Of a DNA stretch of 34,635 bases, positions 17,232 to 20,291 are shown piece after piece. The stretch spans positions 1 to 34,635 of the forward strand of contig JANXDG010000077.1 in NCBI GenBank assembly GCA_025059805.1, given 5' to 3'. The stretch comes from Endomicrobiia bacterium (GTDB lineage: Bacteria > Elusimicrobiota > Endomicrobiia > DTEH01). The position numbers and the translations under genes were made by a program. The notes under the pieces were generated by a model. The model was not told the origin of the DNA. It did not search any database and saw nothing but the letters and a program-made list of their open reading frames with translations. Position 1 is the first letter of the stretch. Each line of letters starts with the position of its first letter.

Positions 17232-20200
17232 TTACGAATTTAATTCTTTATTTTCTATCTGAGGTAATACTTTTTCTACAAATACCTCAACAAGATATGG
17301 GTCAAACTGTGTCCCAGCATTTCGTCTTAATTCTTCTATAGCTTCCTGTTTACCTATAGCTTTCTTATATGGACGATCATGTGTCATAACATCATATGCA
17401 TCTACAATAGATACCAAACGTGCCATTAAAGGTATTTCTTCACCCTTAAGTCCTTTTGGATATCCTGAACCGTCCCACCTCTCATGGTGGCACAAAATTG
17501 CCTCTGCTACTTTTGTTAACAAGTAATGTGATAACGCAATTTTGTGTCCCACTTCAGGATGTTTCTGCATAACTGACCACTCACTTGGACTAAGCTTTTC
17601 TGGTTTATTTAGAATACTATCAGGAATAGCAATTTTCCCCGCATCATGCAGCAAAGCAAGGATGGTGAGTTCATCTATATCATTATCAGACAGACCCAAG
17701 ATTTTACCAAACGATACAAGCATGTTCTTAATTCTTTCCGTATGTTCTTTAGTTTCATGACTTCTTTCCTGTAAAGTATAAATTAAAGAAGTAATAAACG
17801 CACTTTGTGTACTGCTAACATGTAAAAACTTGTTTCTATACATATTATCCTCAGCTTCTTTGAGTACATCGTAAATATCTTGTTGTTCATTTTCTTTTAC
17901 AGCGAACCCTATTGCTATAAGCGGTTTGACCACTGAAGTTTCTTGTTCAGCCATACTTTTTATTTTGTGAGCAATCTCCTCAACTGTCTTTATATTTGTT
18001 CTCGGTAATACTATTAAAAACTCATCCCCACCGGTACGGAATACCAAATCGTTCTCTCTACAACATTTCTTAATAATATTGGCAACTTTAATCAACACTT
18101 TGTCACCTTCGGAAGGACCTAGTATATTATTTATCAGTTTTAAATTATTAATATCGCAATTTATGAATCCAACTGGAAGATTGCCAGCAACATCTATGTT
18201 TATTATTTCTTGTTCAAAAAAAGTACGGTTACAAAATCCTGTAAGTTTATCGTAAAGACTTAAATATCTAATCTTTTGTTCAGCTTTTTTCCTTTCTTCA
18301 ACTTCTGCCTCTAACCGCTTAATTTGTTTTTCCAGTTCTTCCGCGTGATTTTGTAATATTTGTTCTTTTTCTTTGTAATAATCTATTTTTTCAATTAATT
18401 CTTCAGCAGGTATTTTCATATTTGCAAGTATCTGACCATAAATAAATGATAAAGCTTTTTCTTCTTCATATGTAAAAAAATTACTTTTTTTCATCTCAGT
18501 ATGTGCTGCTGCAGAACCAATTAAACCCGCTAGTACTCTTTCAGCTTCCCGATATAGTTCAACAAGTTCTATTGCTGAAATAAATTGTCTATCATTCATA
18601 TGCAGTTTTTTTAAACATTCATTTATCGTAGTAGAAACACTGTTGTCTTTCAGATATTGACTGAATATTTTTTTCATAATCTCAACTTTCTCTGCAAGCA
18701 TAATATACTCTTTTCTGAATAGTTCTTTAAGGAACGCAATGTCTTTAGAATATTTACCGATAATTTGTTCCACAGTCTCTTTTTCCATCTCAGTCTGTTT
18801 AGAAAACAGAGATACAATAATATAAATACTGGCATTTATAATTAATGACCACCAAACAACGTTCGTGAAAACAATGTCAAAACGCCATTGTTTTGTTAAC
18901 CCTACCATAGGAGGTAGAAATAAGCCAAAAAACCATATCATAATACCACTAAGCATTCCTAACAAAGCACCTTTTTTATTACCTTTTTTCCAAACTAATC
19001 CACCAATAGTAGCAGGGGCCAAATTTGCTATACAAGCAAAAGCTGTAATACCTATATCTACCAATGCATAAAATCTAAAAATTTTTCTCTCAACATAAAA
19101 ACATATTAAAATTATAAAAAAAACGACAATCCAACGAATTTTCAATATATACCTTTTAAGGTTTTTCAACATTTCAACTTTATTTATTAATGGTGTCACA
19201 AAATAGTTGCTAACCATAATTGATATTGCAACTGAACTAATAACTATCATACTAAACGCAGCTGAAATCCCTCCTAAGAAAACTATGATAGCAAGCCATA
19301 TTTTATTGTAGCTTAGTGGGAAGTACAATGAAAGTCCACTTGCTTCCAACAGACTAAATCCCTTTATTATACCTGCATATGCAATTGGTACTACAAAGAT
19401 ACCCATAAGAAGTAAATAAACAGGGAATAACCAAGTTGCTGTATTTATATGTTCTTCACTGTAGTTTTCTACTACCGCTACATGAAATTGTCTAGGTAAA
19501 AACATAAATGCGAACATTGATATTATTAAGTATGCATTCCAGAGAAGTAACGGATTGACTTGTGTATCACTTATCTTGGTTAACAAATAAGATGTTTGGT
19601 ATTGTACTTGCAGAAAGATATCCCCGAAACCTTTAAAGACAAAAAATGTAATAAAAATGCCTGCAGATAACAATGCAATAAGTTTAAATAGTGACAATAT
19701 CGCTACTACAAAAATTAAACCTGGCTGTCGTTCGGTAGAATCTAACTTCCTAAAACCAAAAATAATCGTAAATAATGTTATGAGTAAAAAGAACAGGTAG
19801 TCTATTGCAATATATGTCGGACCTGTAGGTATATTAAGAGAAGAAGAATAAACTAGTATATTAGCTGTTTTTATCATTGATTGGAATTGCAATGCGATAT
19901 ATGGTATTATACAAAGTACACAAATAATTGTAGCTAGCATTCCTACAGGTAAAGATTTTCCATACCTCAAAAATAGAAAATCTGCAATACTTGTTATACT
20001 GTATTTATCTCTTAGTTCCACTAATTTATGTACAAATTTATTCCAGAAAGGCGATACCAACGTAGTTGCCAAATATACTGATAAAAACAAAATACCTGAA
20101 GAAGTTACTTTTTGTATAGAGCCGTAATAAGCCCATGCAGTACAAAAGACAGCTATTGATAAGGTATAGACTAATGGATTATTTACAAGTACTTTATTCC

Positions 20201-20291
20201 GTGAATGTTGTTTTTCAACCCAATAAGCGAGACCATACAAAATTAAAAAATATACTGTTATAACACCGATTATCGTTAGCGGGCTAAACAT
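17232..20291 (-). CDS. SLC5/SSF transporter-STAC-coiled coil-GGDEF-HD-GYP fusion protein
   Basis: CbrA-like transporter motifs CTAWAYYGSIQ, YSITSIADFLFLRYGKS, IPYIALQFQSM, PRQFHVAVVENYSEEHINTATWLFPVYLLLMGIFVVPIA; STAC-like AERVLAGLIGSAAAHTEM; GGDEF with I-site RENDLVFRTGGDEF; HD-GYP LLHDAGKIAIPDSILNKP ... HHERWDGSGYPKGLKGEEIPLMARLVSIVDAYDVMTHDRPY. Confidence 0.93.
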   Translation of the reverse strand: MFSPLTIIGVITVYFLILYGLAYWVEKQHSRNKVLVNNPLVYTLSIAVFCTAWAYYGSIQKVTSSGILFLSVYLATTLVSPFWNKFVHKLVELRDKYSITSIADFLFLRYGKSLPVGMLATIICVLCIIPYIALQFQSMIKTANILVYSSSLNIPTGPTYIAIDYLFFLLITLFTIIFGFRKLDSTERQPGLIFVVAILSLFKLIALLSAGIFITFFVFKGFGDIFLQVQYQTSYLLTKISDTQVNPLLLWNAYLIISMFAFMFLPRQFHVAVVENYSEEHINTATWLFPVYLLLMGIFVVPIAYAGIIKGFSLLEASGLSLYFPLSYNKIWLAIIVFLGGISAAFSMIVISSVAISIMVSNYFVTPLINKVEMLKNLKRYILKIRWIVVFFIILICFYVERKIFRFYALVDIGITAFACIANLAPATIGGLVWKKGNKKGALLGMLSGIMIWFFGLFLPPMVGLTKQWRFDIVFTNVVWWSLIINASIYIIVSLFSKQTEMEKETVEQIIGKYSKDIAFLKELFRKEYIMLAEKVEIMKKIFSQYLKDNSVSTTINECLKKLHMNDRQFISAIELVELYREAERVLAGLIGSAAAHTEMKKSNFFTYEEEKALSFIYGQILANMKIPAEELIEKIDYYKEKEQILQNHAEELEKQIKRLEAEVEERKKAEQKIRYLSLYDKLTGFCNRTFFEQEIINIDVAGNLPVGFINCDINNLKLINNILGPSEGDKVLIKVANIIKKCCRENDLVFRTGGDEFLIVLPRTNIKTVEEIAHKIKSMAEQETSVVKPLIAIGFAVKENEQQDIYDVLKEAEDNMYRNKFLHVSSTQSAFITSLIYTLQERSHETKEHTERIKNMLVSFGKILGLSDNDIDELTILALLHDAGKIAIPDSILNKPEKLSPSEWSVMQKHPEVGHKIALSHYLLTKVAEAILCHHERWDGSGYPKGLKGEEIPLMARLVSIVDAYDVMTHDRPYKKAIGKQEAIEELRRNAGTQFDPYLVEVFVEKVLPQIENKELNS

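Follow-up and report, generated by a model that had tools for sequence, protein, structure and literature searches.

A single polypeptide from an Endomicrobiia bacterium, P0001, joins an SLC5 transporter-like domain, through a STAC domain and a signalling helix, to a GGDEF–HD-GYP tandem. We propose, with somewhat better than even confidence, that P0001 is a transceptor in which the solute state of the SLC5 domain is relayed through STAC and a coiled coil to a GGDEF–HD-GYP dimer, with net hydrolysis of c-di-GMP as its most likely effect. In this model, the CbrA-type SLC5 domain would bind, and perhaps carry in a proton-coupled manner, a small organic solute; the probable ligand is a carboxylate or an amino acid. 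The conformational state of the domain would pass through the docked STAC domain and a parallel coiled coil to the dimeric output, which would then change cellular c-di-GMP, most likely through hydrolysis by HD-GYP, and the GGDEF domain would either regulate, by binding GTP or c-di-GMP, or serve as a weak cyclase. The proposal builds on what can be read from the sequence (the architecture and homology, the conserved pocket and coupling lysine, the signalling helix, the HD-GYP ligands and the genomic PilZ matches), to which it would add a ligand class, a direction of control, enzymatic activities, a dimer and a solute-controlled output. The gene and its surroundings in the window, a 34,635-nucleotide stretch of contig JANXDG010000077.1, are as follows.

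17232..20291, minus strand: open reading frame P0001 (SLC5-STAC-signalling helix-GGDEF-HD-GYP), 1019 aa, ATG start
18792..20291, minus strand: SLC5 transporter-like domain, residues 1-500, about 13 transmembrane helices (phmmer, alignment, hydropathy)
18486..18758, minus strand: STAC domain, residues 512-602 approximately, with an AGLIGSAAA motif (profile and pairwise matches)
18264..18485, minus strand: post-STAC helix or coiled coil, residues 603-676 (41% identity to the kinase L099, E=3e-16)
17817..18263, minus strand: GGDEF domain, residues 677-825, with I-site RxxD at 745-748 and GGDEF at 754-758 (Pfam, 2.3e-30)
17268..17795, minus strand: HD-GYP domain, residues 833-1008 (Pfam HD_5, 4.6e-39)
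20304..20531, minus strand: candidate membrane peptide of two helices, CbrX-like, 75 aa if started at a TTG, start uncertain (position and hydropathy)
14456-17122, minus strand: secA, downstream of P0001
20674-20883: cold-shock gene, on the upstream side of P0001
20999-25991, minus strand: two adjacent proteins, each with a Wzy_C (O-antigen-ligase) domain and then TPR repeats, on the upstream side of P0001

The first-pass annotation had placed the fusion at 17232-20291, which proved exact, and had given no strand; the gene lies on the minus strand, and a plus-strand reading is ruled out by stops throughout. The motifs it quoted are all present in P0001, and the fusion that it described is a real single polypeptide, because its five parts follow one another in order within 1019 unbroken codons, free of stops and frameshifts, inside the 34.6-kb contig. 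GC content runs between 0.29 and 0.38 across the reading frame without a step. Elsewhere in the window, a protein of 1958 aa encoded at 6485-12361 (minus strand) contains Ig repeats as well as fibronectin type III repeats and is probably surface-exposed.

Residues 5-510 of P0001 match the CbrA cryo-EM chain 10ed_A over a 506-residue alignment (phmmer, E=1.2e-58), which bears out the assignment of the transporter half to the CbrA type even though the Pfam SSF model finds no match in P0001; the hydropathy of this half fits about 13 transmembrane helices. In CbrA, the pocket is formed by Y51, S53, W55, A56, F71, Y75, F248 and F406, and K196 lies at the Na2 site (PMC13022988). Aligned with 51 relatives, P0001 has F49, T51, W53, A54, F69, Y73, S258 and F418 at the pocket positions, and its K203 falls on the Na2-site lysine, which is a lysine in 51/51 relatives. 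The positions of CbrA W55 and F406 (W53 and F418 in P0001) are likewise invariant in all 51, and that of F71 (F69) is nearly so. By this alignment, P0001 keeps most of the CbrA pocket and the proton-coupling lysine, and its ligand need not be histidine. No hint of a solute was seen among the genes neighbouring P0001.

A STAC profile built from the STAC regions of 49 relatives, P0001 excluded, scored 26.9 bits over residues 493-600 (E=4e-5 in a set of 177,635 sequences), compared with a best score of 8.3 bits among 5,000 shuffles. Because part of this profile falls on the tail of the final transmembrane segment, the pairwise matches matter too: residues 529-602 match L078, an SLC5-STAC protein with no output domain (E=1e-15, small comparison of two sequences), and residues 530-676 match L099, a STAC-PAS-HisKA-HATPase-REC protein encoded by genome G331 from the same phylum, at E=2.5e-20 in a single-sequence match. 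For the LGPx(x)A-type motif of STAC domains, P0001 reads AGLIGSAAA. In CbrA, STAC docks in a pocket beneath SLC5 (PMC13022988). Profile and pairwise scores together uphold the STAC segment of the first-pass annotation; the Pfam STAC model has no match in P0001, and the AlphaFold single-sequence model of the region has a pLDDT of 58, the four-helix fold being putative here. The domain order and the lack of a Pfam match to a HisKA/HATPase core in P0001 agree with the reading that a coiled coil, GGDEF and HD-GYP stand in place of the histidine-kinase core.

P0001 matches L099 up to about residue 660, post-STAC helix included, and the remainder matches GGDEF-HD-GYP proteins with other inputs, which resemble the P0001 helix only in its last 14-18 residues; these matches place the exchange point at about residues 660-678. 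Because the two sides of a clean junction match different protein types, the output module appears to have been swapped at the coiled coil. On sequence grounds, P0001 arose from an SLC5-STAC kinase whose output domain was exchanged at its coiled coil, and one transmission segment, STAC plus helix, is predicted to feed two output types, kinase and c-di-GMP. The SLC5 half of L099 is probably L037, on a separate contig; contigs C69 and C104 of G331 do not overlap, and the union of L099 and L037 in one gene is putative.

CbrX is a small membrane peptide encoded upstream of CbrA that binds SLC5 (PMC13022988). The reading frame at 20304-20531, absent from the first-pass annotation, ends 12 nt before the P0001 ATG and encodes two hydrophobic stretches with FFNLP...SW, and 30 relatives carry, immediately upstream, a similar short reading frame that shows an [N/S]xP...W pattern. 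Its position and shape make the peptide a CbrX-like candidate of marginal similarity, with a CbrX-profile score that 118-363 of 20,000 shuffles also reach when composition is left uncorrected and that is not significant when it is corrected. The reading frame found nothing meaningful in the PDB, and Pfam models, CbrX included, had no match among the two upstream short peptides tested. Across three phyla, many genes for CbrA-like and roughly 920-aa SLC5-STAC kinases (L037-L042, L052, L055-L089) also have a short reading frame with two such stretches directly upstream. The SLC5-STAC family may have CbrX as a general subunit.

On the output side, the HD-GYP domain keeps E846, H850, H882, D883, K886, H911, H935, H936 and D964 in alignment to 4mcw. 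Every metal ligand is present, at positions that we take from the 4mcw family, so the residues were rightly called intact. The same description fits the GGDEF domain in part: the signature and the RxxD five residues before it are preserved, as are D713, N721, D730, E757 and K821, but N722, P726 and L791 replace D, H and S, found in 18/18, 17/18 and 18/18 relatives, respectively. All five solved GGDEF chains that we aligned read ND..GH where P0001 has N722 and P726. With HD-GYP complete and three unusual substitutions in GGDEF, P0001 is more probably a phosphodiesterase whose cyclase domain is regulatory or weak than a balanced two-way switch, and the earlier proposal that the protein both makes and breaks c-di-GMP is doubtful. 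The nearest relatives of the output half (up to 51% identity), encoded by Bacillota, Actinomycetota and other genomes, lack SLC5. A genome of the same class, G042, encodes three GGDEF-HD-GYP proteins (L033, L034 and L035) that are 42-45% identical to this half. The P0001 genome itself has two PilZ matches, which suggests that it encodes c-di-GMP receptors. One of them belongs to the 532-aa reading frame at C36:18718-19596 of that genome (L003, L054), which also matches HD-GYP and so joins a c-di-GMP enzyme domain to a c-di-GMP receptor domain.

The retained GGDEF signature, I-site and other residues, next to an intact HD-GYP, would suit a balanced switch in which the solute state decides whether the dimer works as a cyclase or as a phosphodiesterase; the bifunctional receptor MbaA is the comparison here. 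We consider such a switch unlikely, given the three substitutions, the ND..GH of the solved chains and the degenerate GGDEF signatures of the SLC5-STAC-GGDEF-EAL relatives, in which two lineages join SLC5-STAC to degenerate GGDEF plus EAL and so offer a phosphodiesterase-type precedent. Its fullest form is quite doubtful: a single-chain transceptor in which SLC5 occupancy or the transport cycle, together with a CbrX-like subunit, lets one dimer alternate between synthesis and hydrolysis of c-di-GMP, so that two-component phosphotransfer is bypassed altogether.

The SLC5 domain could instead be a mere membrane anchor or a constitutive importer, with GTP or an intracellular cue, not solute, setting the c-di-GMP output. 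In CrbS and CbrA, signalling is independent of transport, and STAC deletion has no obvious phenotype in P. fluorescens (PMC5715377); CbrA without its transporter part still signals when highly expressed (PMC7918813). We nevertheless judge this improbable for P0001, in which the pocket residues and coupling lysine are conserved and the STAC-helix segment is shared with a kinase. An assembly chimera or a recent non-functional fusion would explain why P0001 is a singleton among about 1,600 genomes searched, but is very improbable: the codons are unbroken, GC shows no step, the junction falls within a coiled coil and leaves both halves in frame, and the catalytic residues are kept. We rejected an assembly artefact on the same grounds. 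The transceptor with net hydrolysis is the reading that we prefer. The earlier interpretation stands as to a transporter-like sensor and c-di-GMP enzymes on one polypeptide; it is doubtful as to both synthesis and breakdown, and too strong as to the novelty of an output other than phosphotransfer.

To gauge rarity, we used residues 1-627 as the query against about 1,600 genomes from six phyla. Matches occurred in 3/341 genomes of its own phylum, 177/399 in the phylum of a Pseudomonas and 6/251 in that of an Anaerolineaceae, and in none of the 300, 77 and 241 genomes in the phyla of Dethiosulfatibacter, a Nitrospinota and a Victivallaceae, respectively. Among 52 matching proteins read, two (L038 and L039) end in GGDEF-EAL, one (L078) has no output, and the rest of those reaching the output are kinase-like or cut; 19 further matches of diverse length contain no GGDEF or HD-GYP motif. 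Annotated plasmid relatives are mostly kinases, with one EAL protein. P0001 alone has the HD-GYP version among the proteins read, which cover part of the total, with well over a hundred Pseudomonadota matches outside it and kinase calls there mostly motif-based. Two same-genus and two same-family genomes contain no match to P0001 at E<=1e-20, and so no orthologue that would show conservation of the fusion. The best SLC5-STAC match, at 373 bits, is L078 (1465-3705, Pseudomonadota), which stops after a coiled coil and has no output domain that we recognise.

The implied novelty was too strong because a 2017 paper (PMC5715377), citing Korycinski 2015, names GGDEF among the STAC partner domains, and because SLC5-STAC-GGDEF-EAL proteins exist; an output other than phosphotransfer was known in principle. 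In the literature that we found, an SLC5 receptor with c-di-GMP output appears in a single sentence of that paper, with no experimental study, and a 2022 review of c-di-GMP inputs includes no symporter (PMC8846402). What is new here is the GGDEF-HD-GYP tandem as the output of SLC5-STAC. In CbrA, signalling induces another histidine importer and masks the protein's own transport (PMC13022988). For tracing the route from transporter conformation to output, P0001 offers a sensor of this kind whose output is enzymatic and can be measured directly. With the L099 kinase it forms a natural pair, a c-di-GMP and a kinase output on one shared STAC-helix segment, in which to ask what part of the protein transmits the signal.

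Among solved structures, 8qj3 and 8qpf, chains named ammonium transporter, also fuse a membrane transporter to GGDEF, but the transporter family is unrelated and the match runs through GGDEF only. The GGDEF-HD-GYP proteins L009-L027 (Bacillota, Actinomycetota and others) have an output module up to 51% identical to that of P0001, and no SLC5-STAC occurs in the loci fetched. CbrA (SLC5-STAC-PAS-histidine kinase, 10ed) shares the SLC5 fold, most pocket residues, the coupling lysine and STAC, and possibly an upstream CbrX-like peptide; its Y51, S53 and F248 are F, T and S in P0001, which has GGDEF-HD-GYP as output and lacks PAS, the kinase and a response-regulator partner. The hybrid kinases CrbS/MxtR and RpuS similarly continue from SLC5-STAC into a coiled coil or S-helix, but they signal through a phosphorelay and have no c-di-GMP domains. 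L099 resembles P0001 in STAC and the post-STAC helix (33% over 146 aa, 41% in the helix), with a kinase as output and its halves on separate contigs. The SLC5-STAC-GGDEF-EAL proteins, L038/L115 from the same phylum as P0001 and L039 from an Azoarcus sp. KH32C plasmid (WP_231874591), share the direct joining of SLC5-STAC to c-di-GMP domains; they differ in having EAL instead of HD-GYP, degenerate GGDEF signatures and a STAC domain that runs straight into GGDEF, where P0001 has a long helix.
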